Below, piece after piece: positions 15,293 through 45,573 of a DNA stretch of 64,000 nt. The stretch is taken from NCBI GenBank assembly GCA_031317595.1, contig JANCMB010000001.1:2917610-2981609 (forward strand). The letters run 5' to 3'. The DNA comes from Glutamicibacter sp. PS. Its GTDB lineage: Bacteria > Actinomycetota > Actinomycetes > Actinomycetales > Micrococcaceae. The position numbers and the translations under genes are program-made. How positions within the stretch are numbered: position 1 is the stretch's first letter; each line of letters begins with the position of its first letter. The notes beneath the pieces are model-generated. The model was not told the origin of the DNA. It did no database searches and worked only from the letters and a program-made list of their open reading frames with translations.

Positions 15293-15994
15293 ATGCAACA
15301 GCGAGCCCGCGTCACCATCGTCGAAGACGACCCCACCGTGCTGAAGGTCGTCGGCGATTACCTGCGGGCCCAAGACTTCGAGGTGCAACAGTGCGCCGAC
15401 GGGATCGCCGGTCGTGAGCTGTTGTCCAAGGACCTACCCGACGTATTAATTCTGGACCGGATGCTCCCCGGGCTCAGCGGCGACGAGCTCTGTGGCTTTG
15501 TGCGGCAGCGCGCACCACAACTACCGATCATCATGCTCACCGCCTTAGGGTCCGTGGACGAACGCATCGACGGGCTCGAGCGCGGGGCCGACGATTACCT
15601 TCCCAAACCCTTCGCCCTACGCGAGCTAAAGTTGCGTATCGACGCGCTGGTACGCCGGGCCCGTGGGCCGCAGCCCACGGCGACCCCTTTCAGCTTGGGC
15701 GCCTTCACGATCGACCCGGCCCGCCGCATCATCTGGCAGGAGGGTCGACAGATCGAACTGACCACCCGAGAATACGAGCTTTTCCTGTTTCTGCTGCGCA
15801 ACCCGGACCGGGTACTCACCCGTGAAGACATCTTGCGCGAAGTGTGGGGCTGGTCTTTCGGCGAAGCCTCAACGGTCACCGTGCACGTGCGGCGACTGCG
15901 CGAGAAAATTGAAACCGAACCCCATTTTCCACGCTACCTGCGCACCGAATGGGGCGTGGGCTACCGCTTCACCGTCGACGGGAACACACCATGA
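15293..15994 (+). CDS. Two-component response regulator (OmpR/PhoB type)
   Basis: A 233-residue regulator. The receiver domain has the acidic pair EDD (11-13), phospho-acceptor Asp55 in LILDRMLPG, switch Thr83 and Lys105 in DDYLPKPFALRELKLR. The C-terminal winged helix (from about residue 135) shows IELTTREYELFLFLLRNPDRVLTREDIL and the recognition helix VTVHVRRLREKIE. It binds DNA after phosphorylation by the kinase encoded next, with which its stop overlaps by four bases. The divergent DM13-doxX operon 156 bases away is the obvious target. Confidence 0.9.
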   Translation: MQQRARVTIVEDDPTVLKVVGDYLRAQDFEVQQCADGIAGRELLSKDLPDVLILDRMLPGLSGDELCGFVRQRAPQLPIIMLTALGSVDERIDGLERGADDYLPKPFALRELKLRIDALVRRARGPQPTATPFSLGAFTIDPARRIIWQEGRQIELTTREYELFLFLLRNPDRVLTREDILREVWGWSFGEASTVTVHVRRLREKIETEPHFPRYLRTEWGVGYRFTVDGNTP

Positions 15995-17148
15995 TGCTCA
16001 GCGGCACGGACCTGTGGATTATCCTCGGCACCTCGGCCGGATGCACCCTGCTGATCATGCTGCTCACCGCCGGGCTGCTGCGGCTGGCCGCGGCGCGCAC
16101 CATCGTCGTGCAGTGGCTGATCCTGGTCGCCGGAGCCATTCTCGCCATCGTCGCCGCCACCGTGGCCATTGCCGCCGAAATGTACTTCTCCGGCCACGAC
16201 CTTCAGGTGTTGCTGGCCGTGATCGGTATTTCGGCGCCCCTGTCCTTGGGCGCGGCCATCATCACCGGCCGGTTGGCTAGCAGTTCGCTGCGCGAAATGC
16301 GCGCCTCCGCCCAGCGCATCGGTGCCGGAGACGTGGTCACCGCCCGTCCCGCCGGTTCCAAGGAACTGACCGAACTCTCCGAACAGTTGGCTGACACCTC
16401 CGCACAGCTCGCCGAGGCACGCGCGCAACTCGAACAACTCGACGCCGCCCGCCGACAGTTTTTCGCCTGGATCTCGCACGACCTGCGCACCCCGCTGACC
16501 GGTGCCCGGATGCTGTGCGAAGCGCTGGAAGAAGACCTCGTCGACGACCGCCCGCAGGCACTGCGCAGCATCCGGTTCAAGGTCGACACCATGTCGCGGC
16601 TGGTCGATGATCTCTTTGAGCTCTCCCGCTTGCAAAGCGGAGCCCTGCGCTTACACCGCGAGCATGTGGCCCTGATCGATGTGGTTTCCGAGGCCGCAGC
16701 CAATGTGGCCCGGCAGGCCGAGGCACGCGGCGTGCGCATCGAACACCGCCGGCTCGAAGACAAACTGCTGTGGGCGGACCCGCATGAGCTGTCCCGAGTG
16801 ATGACCAACCTGCTGGGTAACAGCGTGCGCCATGCCCCGGCCGGCACGGCGGTGGTGGTCTCGGCCGAACGCAATAGCACCGGACATCTGCTGGTCACCG
16901 TGCTCGATCAGGGACCGGGGGTGGACACCGAGGATCTGGGGCATATGTTCGAGGTCGGGTGGCGGGCCGGCAATGCCCGCACCCCGGGGCCCGATGAGCA
17001 GGACGCCCAGGCGCCGGGCACCGGGGCCGGACTTGGGTTGGCCATTGTGCGCGGCATCGTGGAGGCCCACGGCGGCACCGTGGCCGCGGCTCGTGGGGCC
17101 ACCGGCTTTGAAATGAATATCAGCCTGCCGGCGGATAATCCGCGCTAA
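15991..17148 (+). CDS. Sensor histidine kinase
   Basis: A 385-residue membrane kinase. Two transmembrane helices (about 8-33 and 39-62) are followed by a third hydrophobic segment near 71-95, leaving almost no extracytoplasmic loop, so it probably senses within the membrane or through a partner. A HAMP-like region (100-145) leads to the dimerisation helix with His163 in FFAWISHDLRTPLTGARM. The ATPase domain shows the N box NLLGNSVRHAP, the G1 box DQGPGVD and the G2 region GTGAGLGLAIVRGIVEAHGG. It starts at ATG 15991, overlapping the response-regulator stop. The likely output is control of the DoxX/DM13 pair. Confidence 0.88.
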   Translation: MMLSGTDLWIILGTSAGCTLLIMLLTAGLLRLAAARTIVVQWLILVAGAILAIVAATVAIAAEMYFSGHDLQVLLAVIGISAPLSLGAAIITGRLASSSLREMRASAQRIGAGDVVTARPAGSKELTELSEQLADTSAQLAEARAQLEQLDAARRQFFAWISHDLRTPLTGARMLCEALEEDLVDDRPQALRSIRFKVDTMSRLVDDLFELSRLQSGALRLHREHVALIDVVSEAAANVARQAEARGVRIEHRRLEDKLLWADPHELSRVMTNLLGNSVRHAPAGTAVVVSAERNSTGHLLVTVLDQGPGVDTEDLGHMFEVGWRAGNARTPGPDEQDAQAPGTGAGLGLAIVRGIVEAHGGTVAAARGATGFEMNISLPADNPR

Positions 17149-39249: not shown

Positions 39250-39373
39250 GAGCCATCCTTGCTGATCGAGCGGAACTACGTCCCGTTAAGCCTACGTGTT
39301 CGCGCTGTCCACCGCGCGCCCGGACCGACACCAACTTGCCAGGCACCGCCTCGAACGTGTTAGCGTAATCGCG

Positions 39374-39465
39374 ACCACACGGGTGTCCGTAAGCACGGGC
39401 TGAGATCGAACTGTCGCTGTTCGAGACCGTCGAACCTGTCCGGGTAATGCCGGCGAAGGAAGTGA
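39374..39465 (+). ncRNA. TPP riboswitch (THI element)
   Basis: The conserved blocks of the thiamine pyrophosphate aptamer are present in order: ACGGGTGTCC (P1/P2 5' side), GGGCTGAGA (39398-39406, the pyrimidine-binding J3-2 loop), a variable P3 arm, then CGAACCTGTCCGGGTAATG and CCGGCGAAGGAA (the pyrophosphate-binding P4/P5). It ends about 10 bases before the thiC ATG, so control is likely at translation, by masking the GAAGGAAGTGAG region. Confidence 0.93.
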
Positions 39466-41217
<1,752 letters not shown>

Positions 41218-41257
41218 ACGGGATTATCGGCTAGTTTCCTCCAATCCCAAAGGATTA

Positions 41258-41350
41258 GCACAGACTCGAGCCCTATAGTCATAGGTACCTCATGAAGGTG
41301 CGAGTGATGATCGACTGATGGCCCCGGTAGTTACCGGGGCCATCAGTCGT
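41258..41350 (+). ncRNA. Terminator-linked conserved element, copy 1
   Basis: GCACAG (41258) and a -10-like TATAGT (41274-41279) precede TACCTCATGAAGG (from 41286) and the core GAAGGTGCGAGTGATGATC. A perfect 17-bp hairpin (41313-41348; arms GACTGATGGCCCCGGTA and its complement, two-base loop) follows with a short T-run. From GTACCTC through GATCGA it is identical to copy 2. It could be a small RNA of about 65 nucleotides from its own promoter, or a specialised 3' end of thiC. Confidence 0.6.
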
Positions 41351-41513
41351 TAAACCATCGCTCCCCGCCGGGTCGAAGATCCCCCATTTGGCTATTTCTT
41401 CGTGGTCAACTGCCCGATGCCACGCACTGCGCCTCGCGGCGAGGATAGATCCTAAGCGGCCGCCGCACACGGTGAGCGGCCGCCAGCTATTGCCGACCAA
41501 CGAAGGATTCCCA

Positions 41514-42026
41514 ATGAATTTCCGTTCCAAGCCAGCCAAGACCATCTCTGCACTGGGTTCCGCGCTCCTGGCGGTGGGCTTGCTCACCGCCTGCGGCAAC
41601 ACCGGAGCCCAGGAACCGGCTCCTTCGGCCGAGTCCTCGGCGGCCCAGAGTCCGTCGCAGGTGCTCTCCTCCACCGCATGGGAAACCACCGGAGCCGTGG
41701 ACCAGGACGGCAACGAGGTCCCGCTGACCGATGAGCGCGCCGCGAACTACGTGGGCCTCGCGTATTTCAACGAGGACGGCAGCTTCCAGATGTACACCCT
41801 CGAGGACGAGCCGAAAATGCAGGGCGAGTGGACCGTGGACGAGGCGGGCACTACCCGCCACATCGTGGCCAAGGACGGGGACGGTAAGACGCTGTTCGAA
41901 CGCGATTCGCAAATCACCGAGCTCACCGGCGAGGAATTCACCTACCGTGTGCCGGCCGAGGGCAACGACGGGCAGTACGTGGACATCGTCCACACCCCCA
42001 CCGACCACCTCGAACCCACTAAGTAA
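41514..42026 (+). CDS. DUF4822-type lipoprotein
   Basis: A 170-residue exported lipoprotein with signal peptide and lipobox LTAC (Cys27) and a Ser/Ala/Gln/Pro linker to about residue 50. The rest is a single DUF4822 domain, recognisable by STAWETTGAVDQDGNEVPLTDERAANYVGLAYFNEDGSF, PKMQGEWTVDEAGTTRHIVAKD and VDIVHTPTDH. The domain is a small beta barrel of unknown ligand. AAGGA lies seven bases before the ATG. It is the only gene between copies 1 and 2 of the repeated element and may be transcribed on its own. Confidence 0.8.
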   Translation: MNFRSKPAKTISALGSALLAVGLLTACGNTGAQEPAPSAESSAAQSPSQVLSSTAWETTGAVDQDGNEVPLTDERAANYVGLAYFNEDGSFQMYTLEDEPKMQGEWTVDEAGTTRHIVAKDGDGKTLFERDSQITELTGEEFTYRVPAEGNDGQYVDIVHTPTDHLEPTK

Positions 42027-42066
42027 GAGGAGCTATCGGCAAGCTCCGGTGCGGGGCTAAGTTCAC

Positions 42067-42162
42067 GCACAGATGAGAGCCTTAGAGTAATAAGTACCTC
42101 ATGAAGGTGCGAGTGATGATCGAGAAAGCCGCCGGTTTCCACCGGCGGCTTTGTCGTTAACA
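42067..42162 (+). ncRNA. Terminator-linked conserved element, copy 2
   Basis: GCACAG (42067), -10-like TAGAGT (42083-42088), then the conserved TACCTCATGAAGG and GAAGGTGCGAGTGATGATC, ending in hairpin AAAGCCGCCGGT-ttcc-ACCGGCGGCTTT (42125-42152) and TTGTCGTT. The distance between GCACAG and the -10-like sequence (10 bases) and from it to the ATG-like triplet (12 bases) is the same as in copy 1. It lies between the DUF4822 gene and a convergent acetyltransferase. Confidence 0.6.
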
Positions 42163-42186
42163 CGGCGCCTGCCTAGCGTGACCGGG

Positions 42187-42651
42187 CTAATTCAGCGGCA
42201 ACCGGTAGTAGGCGCTGTGCGGGTCGCTGCGATAGGAGCCGAAGGCCGGAGCCGGGGTAAACCCCACCGATTCGTAAAGGGCCCGCGCAGCTCGGAAATG
42301 GTCATGCGTTCCCGTTTCGAGCAGCAGCGTGCGTACGCCGCGTTCGGTGGCGACCTCCACGAGGTGTTGCAGCATCTTGCGTGCATGACCGCGCCCACGA
42401 TGAGAATCCATTGTGCGCATGCTCTTCACCTCGGCCATGTAGTCCGCGAAGAAGTGCAGTGCTCCCATGGTAACCGGCTTCGACCCCAAGTAACCGGCAT
42501 ACAGCTGGACCGTGGGGCCCGTGAGGCGATCGGCATCGAAGGCGTGGCGGCTTTCATCGGGCGCGGTCGCTTCCAAATCACGCAAATGCTCACCGATGAA
42601 TTCGGCCATCCCAGGCGCATCCACGCCAACGGCTTTGATCTCTAGTCTCAT
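42187..42651 (-). CDS. GNAT-family N-acetyltransferase
   Basis: A 154-residue acetyltransferase. The core is VKSMRTMDSHRGRGHARKMLQHLVEVATERGVRTLLLETGTHDHFRAARALYESVGFTPAPAFG (about residues 76-140), with the RGRGxAxxML acetyl-CoA loop and the alpha4 YESVGF segment. This resembles PapA2/YsnE-type small acetyltransferases. Acceptor unknown. The ATG at 42649-42651 has TGCGTTTC upstream and no clear ribosome-binding site. Confidence 0.8.
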   Translation of the reverse strand: MRLEIKAVGVDAPGMAEFIGEHLRDLEATAPDESRHAFDADRLTGPTVQLYAGYLGSKPVTMGALHFFADYMAEVKSMRTMDSHRGRGHARKMLQHLVEVATERGVRTLLLETGTHDHFRAARALYESVGFTPAPAFGSYRSDPHSAYYRLPLN

Positions 42652-42831
42652 GAAACGCAGTCTGCCAGAGTCATGTTTCAGGCTGTTTGAGCCACGGTCA
42701 CAAGCGCGTTTCCAATACGCACTTTTCGAGGGCGATCCGGCCCGTGCCGTCTCCCACCGCTGACATTGTCGGGCTTAGCTCGTATCCTAAAGCTACGTGC
42801 ACCCCTTCAACGAAAGTCAGGACGTTGCGCG

Positions 42832-44232
42832 ATGGACAATGATTTCGATGCCGAACTCACCGATGCTTCAACGGCACCGGCCTCAGCAGCACCCACAACC
42901 GGACACCGCACGTTCCTTCACGTTCTGGTCAACACCGCCATTGCAAATATCACCACGAGCTACCTGTGGTTCGCGCTGACCTTCTGGGTGTACCTCGAGA
43001 CGAAGAACGTCATGGCGACCGGCTTTATTGGCGGCGCCTTCATGCTCCTGATCTCGGTCTGTGCAATGATCTTCGGCACCGCCGTGGATCGACACCGCAA
43101 AAAGGCTGTTCTGGTCTTTTCGGCGGTGTTCACCGCCGCGATGTTCTCCCTAGCCGGCCTGCTGTACCTGTGGCTGCCCACCGCGTCCATCTTGGATATT
43201 GGCGGGTGGCAATTCTGGCTATTCAGCGGAGTGATCCTCATCGGCGCCATCGTGGAGCAAATGCGCAATATTGCCCTGTCCACCACCGTGACCCTGCTGG
43301 TGCCGGTAGAACGCCATGCCAACGCAAACGGTCTCGTCGGCACCGTGCAGGGGGCCGCGTTGATTATCACCAGCGTGTTTAGTGGTCTGTCCATCGGCCT
43401 GCTCGGCATGGGATGGACCTTGAGTTTGGCGATCATTCTGGTGCTGGTGACCTTGACGCATCTGCTGACGATTCGCATCCCAGAAAAGCAACCCGAGCCC
43501 GAACCCGGGGTCAGCCGAAGCATGGATTTCCGGACCGGTTTCGCGGCCATCACCGCCATCACGGGATTGCTCGCGCTCATCCTCTTCTCGATGTTCAATA
43601 ATTTCATCGGCGGGGTCTATATGGCGCTGATGGATCCCTACGGCCTGGAGATCATGTCCGTCGAAGCCTGGGGTATCGCCTTTGGTGTTGCCTCCACCGG
43701 CTTCATCATTGGTGGGCTCCTCGTTGCCAGATTTGGGCTCGGCAGCAACCCGATCCGCACCCTGTTGATTGCTGTGATGGCCATGGGTGCCTTGGGCGCC
43801 TTATTCACCATCCGGGAATCGGTGTGGCTCTTTGTGCTGGGAACCTGGCTCTACATGATGTTGATTCCCGCCGCGGAAGCCGCCGAACAGACCGTCATTC
43901 AGCGCGTCGTGCCCTATGCCCGGCAGGGGCGTGTCTTCGGCTTCGCCCAAATGCTTGAGGCGGCCGCAGCACCAATTACCGCATTTTTGATTGCGCCGTT
44001 CGCACAGTATTTGATCATTCCGTACATGCGTACCGAGCAGGGGCTCGATACGTTCAACTGGTTGTTGGGTCGCGGTGGTACGCGCGGCATTGCCCTGATT
44101 TTCTGCGTTGCTGGCGTGATCATGGTGATTGTCGCCCTGCTGGCCCTAGCCAGCCGACCCTACCGCGAACTCTCGGCGAGCTTCGGCTCGGCAAAGGTCA
44201 ACGAACGAACCGGACAGGAACCCGATGGCTAA
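42832..44232 (+). CDS. MFS transporter (multidrug/siderophore exporter type)
   Basis: A 466-residue membrane protein with about twelve helices. The acidic, Ala/Thr-rich N terminus (30 residues) is followed by FLHVLVNTAIANITTSYLWFALTFWVYLETKNVMATGFIGG, then GTAVDRHRKKAVLVFSAVF, the family A-motif region. The order resembles EntS/TetV-type exporters. The longer upstream frame is unlikely; ATG 42832 follows AGGAC. The last eight bases overlap the DUF1801 gene, with which it is translationally coupled. Confidence 0.75.
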   Translation: MDNDFDAELTDASTAPASAAPTTGHRTFLHVLVNTAIANITTSYLWFALTFWVYLETKNVMATGFIGGAFMLLISVCAMIFGTAVDRHRKKAVLVFSAVFTAAMFSLAGLLYLWLPTASILDIGGWQFWLFSGVILIGAIVEQMRNIALSTTVTLLVPVERHANANGLVGTVQGAALIITSVFSGLSIGLLGMGWTLSLAIILVLVTLTHLLTIRIPEKQPEPEPGVSRSMDFRTGFAAITAITGLLALILFSMFNNFIGGVYMALMDPYGLEIMSVEAWGIAFGVASTGFIIGGLLVARFGLGSNPIRTLLIAVMAMGALGALFTIRESVWLFVLGTWLYMMLIPAAEAAEQTVIQRVVPYARQGRVFGFAQMLEAAAAPITAFLIAPFAQYLIIPYMRTEQGLDTFNWLLGRGGTRGIALIFCVAGVIMVIVALLALASRPYRELSASFGSAKVNERTGQEPDG

Positions 44233-44650
44233 TCAAAAAACCTTGCCCACCACTGCCAGCGTGGCCGACTTTCTCGCCTCGGTCACACCGAACAAGCGAC
44301 GGATTGACGGTGAAGAGCTGGCGGTGATTTTCCGTCAAACTACTGGCGTTGAACCGGTCATGTGGGGGCCGAGCATGATCGGTTTCGGACAGTACAGCTA
44401 CAGTTACGACTCCAAACGCAGTGGGATCTGGCCCAAGGTAGCGTTCTCCCCACGCCGGGACCGGATAAGCCTCTATGGGTTGAAGGACAACACGCAACAG
44501 GTGGAGCTGCTACCGCGTTTGGGTAACTTCACCGAAGGCGTTGGTTGCGTCTACGTGAAGAAGCTTGAAGATATCGACCACACGGTTTTACGCGAACTCA
44601 TAATTCTTGGCTTCAGCCGCCCGGATCGGCTACCCGAGTCCACAGATTAG
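44225..44650 (+). CDS. DUF1801-domain protein
   Basis: A 141-residue soluble protein of the YdhG/YobT-like DUF1801 family. Typical segments are SVADFLASVTPNKRRIDGEEL, VEPVMWGPSMIGFGQYSYSYDSKRSGIWPKVAFSPRRDRISLYG and GCVYVKKLEDIDHTVLRELI. The fold resembles that of the E. coli protein YdeI/iron-related DUF1801 proteins; no enzymatic function is settled. Its ATG overlaps the MFS stop region by eight bases. Confidence 0.8.
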   Translation: MANQKTLPTTASVADFLASVTPNKRRIDGEELAVIFRQTTGVEPVMWGPSMIGFGQYSYSYDSKRSGIWPKVAFSPRRDRISLYGLKDNTQQVELLPRLGNFTEGVGCVYVKKLEDIDHTVLRELIILGFSRPDRLPESTD

Positions 44651-44838
44651 TACCGATCTGGCGTCAGACGGGCACCCGAGCTCGCGGTGATTCCGAAGCT
44701 CGGCTTGCCTTCGCAAGACTGTGTCAAAGACCGCGCCGAGGGCCATTGTGACCAGAGTATAGTTTGCCTTGTTAGTACCCATTATCGTGTTGGCGCGTCG
44801 CGTTTTCGCGGCGGCTACCCGCCACGGAAGGACTAGGC

Positions 44839-45444
44839 ATGCACCTGCTCACCCCGCAGATTGATACGTCACTATCGCGCACTCTGGCCAAACACATGTT
44901 TACGGCGATGCTAGTGCGTGGCATTCTGGCCATCGTTTTAGGTTTGCTGATCTTGTTCTTCCCGAAGACCTCGTCGGTGACCGTTTCCCTCTTCGTGGTC
45001 TTTACCCTGTCTCTTTGGCTCTTTCTTGATGGCGTCGCATCGCTGCGGGCCGGTTGGATCGAGCACAAGGCCGGGGTGAAAGGTTGGGGGTGGACAATCG
45101 CCGGCGGTATTGTGGCGATCCTCGCCGGTATCGGCGCGCTGGCCTTCCCGCTGTCCGTGGCGTCCTTCGGTGGCCTGATGATTATGTGGTTCATGGCGTT
45201 GGGACTGATGATCCGCGGCATGCTGGAAATCGGCTCCCGCCTCCGTGGGGCCTGGGCCAAGGTATTCGGCGTGCTGAACCTGCTGGCCGGTCTCGCCCTG
45301 TCCATCGTCATTGTGACCAATCCGGTCTCGGTGCTTTTGGCCCTGTTGTGGATTATTGGCTTCTACGGCGTGGTGTTTGGCGTTGCCGCGCTCGTGGGCG
45401 CCTTTGCCTTCCGCCGCGCGACCAAGCCGCTCACCGCCGCCTAA
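44839..45444 (+). CDS. HdeD-family (DUF308) membrane protein
   Basis: A 201-residue protein with six hydrophobic helices in three hairpins, each followed by a short basic loop (RGILAIVLGLLILFFPKTSSVTVSLFVVFTLSLWLFLDGV, then WTIAGGIVAILAGIGALAFPLS, then FGVLNLLAGLALSIVIVTNPVSVLLALLWIIGFYGVVFG). This is the HdeD pattern, tied to acid resistance in enterobacteria and of unknown action in actinobacteria. GGAAGGAC precedes the ATG. Its 3' side carries copy 3 of the repeated element. The 188 bases upstream hold a weak CCGAGCT/AGCTCGG hairpin and an AT-rich promoter-like stretch, nothing else. Confidence 0.82.
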   Translation: MHLLTPQIDTSLSRTLAKHMFTAMLVRGILAIVLGLLILFFPKTSSVTVSLFVVFTLSLWLFLDGVASLRAGWIEHKAGVKGWGWTIAGGIVAILAGIGALAFPLSVASFGGLMIMWFMALGLMIRGMLEIGSRLRGAWAKVFGVLNLLAGLALSIVIVTNPVSVLLALLWIIGFYGVVFGVAALVGAFAFRRATKPLTAA

Positions 45445-45471
45445 GGTATCGGCAGGCAGTCGCAAGCCGAG

Positions 45472-45572
45472 GCACAGTGCGGACATAGGGGCGCGACTTA
45501 AGCTGGTATTACCTCTTTGAAGGTGCGAGTGATGATCCGCGAAATGCCCCGCTTCGGCGGGGCATTTCCTGG
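45472..45572 (+). ncRNA. Terminator-linked conserved element, copy 3
   Basis: -10-like TAAGCT (45499-45504) is followed by TACCTC (45510), a TTTG in place of ATG, and the same GAAGGTGCGAGTGATGATC core. The hairpin GAAATGCCCCGC-ttcg-GCGGGGCATTTC (45541-45568) has a UUCG tetraloop. GCACAG occurs upstream (45472) but at a longer distance. It separates the HdeD-like gene from a convergent TetR gene. Confidence 0.55.
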
Positions 45573-45573
45573 T

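Follow-up and report, generated by a model that had tools for sequence, protein, structure and literature searches.

What is the short conserved element that stands three times on the + strand between positions 41258 and 45572 of a 64,000-nucleotide stretch of the Glutamicibacter sp. PS genome (contig JANCMB010000001.1; the whole stretch is called the window below)? The first-pass annotation had described a conserved core fused each time to an intrinsic terminator, and had offered two readings of it, a small-RNA family with a common 5' part or leaderless mini open reading frames (mini-ORFs) beginning MKVRVMI. The present analysis favors the former, with a probability of about 70% for its full form: the elements would encode trans-acting sibling small RNAs (sRNAs) of about 65 nucleotides (nt), controlled by PhoP, whose core pairs with the leader of mcdR in Glutamicibacter.

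The exact 19-mer GAAGGTGCGAGTGATGATC occurs at 41294-41312, 42103-42121 and 45519-45537, and no fourth site is present in the window at up to three mismatches (expectation from shuffled sequence, 0.01). Copies 1 and 2 are identical over 30 bases and carry hairpins dissimilar in sequence, and the -10-like hexamers of copies 1, 2 and 3 stand 12 bases 5' of ATG, ATG and TTG respectively; on these points, as on the core itself, the first-pass annotation was right. The elements are laid out as follows (RNA ends are predicted; z is the fold z-score; the -10 assignments come from sequence, alignment and profile).

41224..41264, + strand: copy 1, PhoP-type half-sites phased by 11 bp (CACAG at 41259-41263, CAAAG before it, two upstream ones weak; profile score 31.5)
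41274..41279, + strand: copy 1, -10 hexamer TATAGT
41287..41353, + strand: copy 1, proposed small RNA (z -6.0)
41287-41299, 41296-41310 and 41313-41348, + strand: copy 1, 5' hairpin, core AGGTGCGAGTGATGA and terminator-like stem, in that order
42033..42073, + strand: copy 2, PhoP-type half-sites (CACAG at 42068-42072; profile score 25.0)
42083..42088, + strand: copy 2, -10 hexamer TAGAGT
42096..42160, + strand: copy 2, proposed small RNA (z -4.4), with its core at 42105-42119 and a terminator-like stem at 42125-42152
45449..45489, + strand: copy 3, PhoP-type half-sites (CGCAAG, CACAG, CATAG; G at 45466, 45477 and 45488, 11 bp apart; profile score 21.3)
45499..45504, + strand: copy 3, -10 hexamer TAAGCT
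45511..45573, + strand: copy 3, proposed small RNA (z -3.5), with its core at 45521-45535 and a terminator-like stem at 45541-45568

From ACCU to just past the hairpin the three copies fold with -39.3, -30.9 and -29.9 kcal/mol, and for none of them was any of 200 shuffles as good; in sequence their three hairpins are different. The strong hairpins of the annotated terminators thus hold up; all three stems are followed by poor T-runs, and a function as intrinsic terminators is likely but not proven. Fold energy behind the core is uninformative as a terminator test, since the 75 nt 3' of the core fall below -15 kcal/mol in 243 of 244 copies and likewise in 95% of random stretches.

The copies have a promoter code in common. 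In 256 aligned sequences, four half-sites of the OmpR/PhoB type, with the form TTC[A/C]CAG[C/G], place their G at -44, -33, -22 and -11 from the -10 hexamer (TAnnGT), and this array with its exact 11-bp period substitutes for a -35 box. In 245 of the 256, ACCT follows the -10 hexamer after 6 or 7 nt, so transcription is predicted to start at or beside ACCU. A profile of this promoter scored above 13 at 253 copies, at five other places (one of them the rearranged copy L080) and at four places in reversed sequence, over 1.78 Mb of redundant sequence that lies mostly around the copies and holds the same copies that trained the profile (alignment and scan both include a few chance matches). A profile trained without the copies of the source genome gave the scores listed above for the three window sites, and 9.7 for the next best place in the window. 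A looser pattern of three half-sites was discarded as noise (58 matches in the source genome and 41 in the control).

The source genome harbors five copies, the three of the window and two others at C1:2663391 (+) and C1:11310 (-); the exact 19-mer is found once more outside the window, and the fifth copy (L289, G000:C1:11310, minus strand) is diverged. Under strict filters, a head model made of the -10 hexamer, hairpin and core matched 84 of 147 genomes, and all 84 were among the 89 Micrococcaceae genomes; no match was found in the 58 genomes of other families in the order, 43 of the unmatched genomes being presumed to belong to the same order. Each of the 18 Glutamicibacter genomes has 5-9 matches and genomes of other genera have 1-9, some of them one only, and the five Micrococcaceae genomes without a match all belong to two genera (g3 and g6). 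The further copies in related genomes that a small-RNA family would imply are therefore there, and together with the common promoter code and the complementary leader site described below they lend good support to that part of the first-pass annotation. Among the matches listed by a pattern scan are copies in Glutamicibacter, Arthrobacter, Paeniglutamicibacter, Paenarthrobacter, Micrococcus and Citricoccus, as well as Kocuria, Zhihengliuella, Zafaria, Tersicoccus, Specibacter and Auritidibacter. The scan also hit five places in Acidobacteriaceae, Rhizobium and Saprospiraceae that have no such promoter; these were taken as chance or coding sequence. Fifteen loci were set aside on such grounds (L006, L008-L013, L016, L037, L082, L089, L140, L156, L158 and L159), and L089, L140, L156, L158 and L159 were left out of the neighbor survey and of the start-triplet count over 244 copies. 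An Arthrobacter-type copy in a record titled Vibrio cholerae (L170, WNZI01000012.1) probably reflects a mislabelled or contaminated assembly.

The comparison with Rfam that the first-pass annotation had called for yielded no family for the elements: in the window, Rfam 15 gave only a TPP riboswitch elsewhere above its gathering threshold, matches in the element region at E up to 5 were far under their thresholds, and 15 loci with long copies matched no family. No paper on this sRNA family was found among the titles and abstract openings that searches of an open-access library listed, and the core string occurs in no open-access paper searched (two unrelated papers contain a 10-nt RNA string of it). 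Four sRNAs of Arthrobacter oxidans have been described (PMC6696678), the sequences being in the supplement of that paper, so an overlap with the present family is possible.

Downstream of the promoter the layout is a small ACCU-(loop)-AGGU hairpin, the almost unvarying core GCGAGUGAUGA and a tail. In diverged copies, found by the model and not by the core pattern, GGTG[C/T]GAGTGA is kept and the end is variable. All 405 cells of the 5' hairpin pair, in an alignment fitted to that hairpin model. In most Glutamicibacter copies the tail is a plain terminator-like hairpin, and in other genera long hairpins with UUUCCCCCAA or GCGUUCCCCUCACGC loops are found; longer copies (L014, L096, L101, L135, L199 and others) carry one or two extra hairpins with these C-rich apical loops, which are perhaps a second targeting element. 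The tail loop of the source genome's fifth copy and of like copies elsewhere contains ACCUCCUU. A subtype with ACCTTCTCAAGGTGCGAGTGAT has CACCTCCTT or a like string in its tail loop (L289, L094, L109 and L169), a string close to the 16S anti-Shine-Dalgarno; GUACC...GAAGGUGCG may also resemble 16S rRNA at its 3' end, a likeness that was set aside. Four loci of Citricoccus or Micrococcus (L144, L160, L179 and L183) carry the 15-nt core as an exact tandem duplicate, and L093 a nearly exact one, as if the core behaved as a separate unit.

Which regulator might read the promoter code is suggested by the upstream regions of regulator genes, scored with half-sites that were learnt solely from the sRNA promoters. 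A four-site score of at least 12 was obtained before 13 of 19 phoP2 genes (the source-genome gene is G000:C1:2225467-2226204), and in 11 of those 13 the box stands between -134 and -138 relative to the VVDDE motif; for phoP1, 8 rows out of 12 reached this score, which represent 7 of the 11 distinct genes. The seven placed loci of other regulators, which represent six distinct sites, scored 0.3-5.7. Placement failed for two of the 21 phoP2 loci and for 16 of the 24 that belong to other regulators; L421 fell on phoP2 itself and was excluded from the others, L419 and L422 are one site, and L396 and L451 are one gene. A preliminary round over 30 regulator loci, in which several frames were misassigned, had given high four-site scores only at L396, L401, L402 and L404 (phoP1 or phoP2) and at most 9.5 elsewhere. 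The best PDB match of PhoP1 from G021 and of PhoP2 from the source genome is Mycobacterium tuberculosis PhoP (280 and 224 bits respectively), ahead of MtrA (184 and 153), PrrA (179 and 173) and RegX3 (169 and 164). The half-sites also resemble the DR1/DR2 repeats bound by M. tuberculosis PhoP, among them ACGTACAGC/ACTCCCAGT at lipF and TGTTTCAGC/ATGCACAGC at fadD21 (PMC3413638; this and the other papers are cited from excerpts), and the boxes resemble the PhoR sites of Corynebacterium glutamicum (PMC3353115). A response regulator of the PhoP type, like that of mycobacteria, is the most likely activator.

A candidate target was found from the exposed core. Exact matches to its complement, TCATCACTCG, were listed in six genomes, and one place came up repeatedly: in G000 (the source genome), G004, G008 and G013 a match lies in the leader of a gene of the MerR type. 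The 14 other Glutamicibacter leaders were examined only after this four-genome finding. An orthologue of this gene (mcdR) is present in 18/18 Glutamicibacter genomes and in 30/30 family genomes tried. The best complement of the core lies 75-83 nt before the ATG in each of the 18 Glutamicibacter leaders and covers 14-17 positions (G-U allowed), none of 60 shuffles being as good for any leader. Apart from the -10 region and the ribosome-binding site, this site is the main conserved island before mcdR. All 216 cells at its 12 central positions pair, G-U accounting for 17; over 16 positions there are 249 Watson-Crick cells, 18 G-U cells and 21 cells without a pair, which lie at the ends. The alignment rows were anchored with a pattern in which most of the 12 positions are fixed; the sites themselves had been located without any such pattern. 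Where the site varies, with G in place of an A that faces U or T in place of a C that faces G, pairing is preserved, as it would be after any transition at 9 of the 12 positions. The mean complement score is 37.3, against 15.4 for 150 shuffled cores (standard deviation 1.5, maximum 20.8) and 14.1 for the core's own sense sequence, and a 29-nt piece of the sRNA is predicted to form duplexes of -27.0 to -35.6 kcal/mol with the 18 leaders. The matches listed for the 14-mer complement at up to one mismatch are mostly the sRNA genes themselves.

The identity of the target follows from its neighbors. Two genes identified upstream on its strand encode a BFN-domain protein and a MerR protein with a match to the solved Rv1828, and a cluster of odhI/garA, ftsR (Rv1828), a bifunctional nuclease gene and a second MerR gene (cg1633) is kept in Actinobacteria (PMC6683498). 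Since the order of these genes agrees with this cluster, the target is read as mcdR/resR. The protein itself matches Pfam MerR_1, and no NCBIfam model was found at its cut-off. We take the second MerR gene (cg1633) to be Rv1830 (McdR/ResR), by gene order and by sequence. In mycobacteria McdR controls division and repair (PMC9040748), and McdR/ResR has been linked to ribosomal genes and antibiotic resilience (PMC10336103). The M. tuberculosis mcdR mRNA starts 90 nt before the gene (PMC10336103), so a leader on mcdR is normal.

The family, the promoter code, the like boxes before phoP-type genes and the conserved complementarity are read directly in the sequences, and from them a course of transcription, PhoP binding, pairing in the cell and regulation may be proposed. 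PhoP would be phosphorylated by its kinase and, on the four half-sites, would recruit RNA polymerase; several sibling RNAs starting at or beside ACCU would then accumulate. Their core, mostly single-stranded and kept open between two hairpins, would pair with the mcdR leader 75-83 nt before the start codon, and McdR synthesis would be lowered, either through a blocked leader or through exposure of the mRNA to RNases and decay. Decay or a blocked leader is favored because the pairing site lies too far upstream for the ribosome-binding site and no shared fold switch was seen. That McdR is repressed rather than activated is a guess with a slight lean toward repression.

Several results weigh against this proposal. 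On the side of the regulator, none of the best 25 NCBIfam models for PhoP1 and PhoP2 reaches its cut-off. All 30 genomes searched, those that lack the sRNA included, have a match of 50-54% to the PhoP2 query that is taken as PhoP1, and PhoP2 itself is missing (best match 51-54%) from seven of them that bear the sRNA; PhoP1 is therefore the better candidate for a common activator, though its presence does not discriminate. Six of the 19 phoP2 regions and four of the 12 phoP1 rows score below 12, among them those of the sRNA-bearing G020, G024 and G069, where a good box before phoP2 is missing. Additionally, three phoP2 regions (L433, L435 and L436) and one phoP1 region (L401) score 14-17 on the opposite strand, where the boxes perhaps serve a divergent gene. 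Phosphate starvation as the signal, a candidate prompted by the likeness to PhoR sites, was dropped, since the upstream regions of pstS lack the shared box (2 of 29 with two half-sites, or 4 of 29 with four, are above the 95% background), and phosphate control is thus unlikely.

On the side of the RNA and its target, covariation of the 5' hairpin is not significant: a single double change was seen and 77 of 500 shuffles scored as high, the hairpin varying too little for such a test. The leader test over 30 genomes covered 3 Glutamicibacter, 23 other sRNA-bearing genomes and 4 without the sRNA; outside Glutamicibacter the site reached p <= 0.05 in only 5 of the 23 (G020, G027, G028, G031 and G034, the match in G031 using another part of the core), with p = 0.0018, uncorrected, by Fisher's method over all 23, and it was significant in none of the 4 genomes without the sRNA. 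In G030 a match exceeds every shuffle over 420 nt, at -330, outside the leader band, and is not significant in the leader window. With a leader site in so few genomes outside Glutamicibacter, mcdR alone cannot explain the conservation of the core across the family. Nor does the pairing site show a shared occlusion of the ribosome-binding site (mean unpaired 0.43, blocked or not), and occlusion between site and Shine-Dalgarno sequence was dropped as a mechanism because folding showed no common effect.

The alternative that survives best, though it is fairly unlikely, keeps the sibling sRNAs and places them under another OmpR-family regulator, for instance MtrA, with main targets other than mcdR. 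Mycobacterial MtrA also binds direct repeats, with a GTCACAgcg motif (PMC13189361); against it, the boxes precede many phoP-type genes, mostly at one distance, and the proteins match PhoP better than MtrA. As for other targets, 18 of the 23 non-Glutamicibacter leaders are without a significant site. Single complementary 10-mers stand near gene starts (L384 in G004, L377 and L371 in G008, L469 and L470 in G002, L367 in G000), each in one of six genomes and at genes that we presume to be BioY-, LemA-, secreted-protein, DUF4190-, GpsA- and TctC-like; two such places (L364 and L368) lie on the opposite strand, where pairing is impossible. The mcdR site, on the other hand, is found in all 18 Glutamicibacter genomes.

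A smaller share of probability goes to a decoy, in which the core would bind a protein or the ribosome instead of an mRNA: AAGGUG-N6-AUG looks like a ribosome-binding site and the 5' ACCUC(CUU) like an anti-Shine-Dalgarno. The conservation of the core across the family, its exact tandem duplication in four loci and the C-rich apical loops of the longer copies would suit such a role. It is nonetheless quite improbable, since several copies (GATCA, GATTA, GAGACC) no longer have the AUG and the complement in the mcdR leader would be left as an unexplained coincidence.

Leaderless mini-ORFs or attenuator leaders are very unlikely. An ATG or TTG does precede the core in copies 1-3; among 244 distinct copies, however, only 116 have ATG, GTG or TTG at that place, and triplets such as ATA, ATC or CTC stand there in the others. 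Several copies have also lost the ATG that would be the sixth codon, and the frames differ in length, so that the mini-ORF reading does not hold. Each window element runs directly into a hairpin and not into a same-strand gene, the end of copy 1 lying about 160 nt before the next + strand gene. Least credible is an unexpressed dispersed repeat or mobile element of the REP-like kind: copies are multiple and often grouped about 135-270 bp apart, but tails and flanks are unrelated where promoter and core are conserved, the promoter code is specific, the members of a group are on one strand, and in Arthrobacter relatives copies are syntenic with genes like proC and ppx.

In those relatives a copy adjoins genes that we take to be proC-, sugar isomerase-, ppx/gppA- and topA-like (L092, L095, L096, L101, L103, L104, L110, L117 and others); the proC-like cluster stands beside a copy in 28 loci, and this neighborhood is perhaps the ancestral place of the family. 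In the window, the genes 5' of the copies are presumably thiC-like, small lipoprotein-like and membrane-protein genes; a TPP riboswitch (62.7 bits) lies at 39369-39478, 5' of the thiC-like gene, and copy 1 is directly 3' of that gene. Genes of an OmpR-type response regulator and a sensor kinase lie at 15293-17148; this regulator is not among the PhoP2 matches at E <= 1e-40, and the kinase gene holds CGAGTGATGA at 16795 in sense, so this match is no target-type site.

The proposed PhoP-controlled siblings can be set beside known systems. The 6C RNA of Actinobacteria has C-rich loops and is included in Rfam. The long copies of Arthrobacter and relatives have C-rich apical loops as well; unlike the 6C RNA, the 15 loci with long copies matched no Rfam family. 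Mcr7 of M. tuberculosis likewise has a small RNA gene activated by such a PhoP, whose binding sites are direct repeats (PMC4038636), whereas it is described as a single RNA that modulates secretion by twin-arginine translocation (TAT), and here several siblings share a core with mcdR as predicted target. The csRNAs of Streptococcus under CiaR (PMC3091779, PMC4211561, PMC4507080) are also several similar sRNAs per genome under one response regulator; they belong to another phylum and regulator, and in the present family just the 15-nt core and the promoter are common, the tails being unrelated. Finally, the McdR-WhiB2 loop (PMC9040748) involves the same gene by gene order, and mycobacterial mcdR is controlled there at its promoter, the excerpted text mentioning no leader sRNA. 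The string GCGACACG, found upstream of the mcdR leader in four promoters (L391, L365, L388 and L378), resembles the WhiB2 motif cGACACGc, and such a loop may exist in Micrococcaceae.

sRNA siblings controlled by a response regulator and a PhoP-dependent non-coding RNA are thus kinds already known, and what appears, from the Rfam and open-access literature searches, to be new is the family, its promoter code, the combination of a core with an exchangeable tail and the predicted mcdR site. To our knowledge, few base-pairing sRNAs in Actinobacteria have a known regulator together with a target conserved across species; here both ends of a circuit can be proposed from sequence, a PhoP-type activator and mcdR/resR as target, in a genus that is not known to be pathogenic, and the family offers an example of a promoter and a 15-nt core that are conserved while the remaining RNA is exchanged. 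A wider view, held tentatively and judged slightly less probable than its negation, is that of a hitherto unrecorded module of the Micrococcaceae in which PhoP drives sRNAs that are interchangeable but for a 15-nt address. In Glutamicibacter this address would silence mcdR/resR and so couple the stress sensing of PhoP to growth arrest and recovery, and in other genera C-rich or anti-Shine-Dalgarno-like loops, or a duplicated address, would reach further mRNAs. If the proposed circuit is true, two regulators that have been studied separately in mycobacteria, PhoP and McdR/ResR, would become linked.

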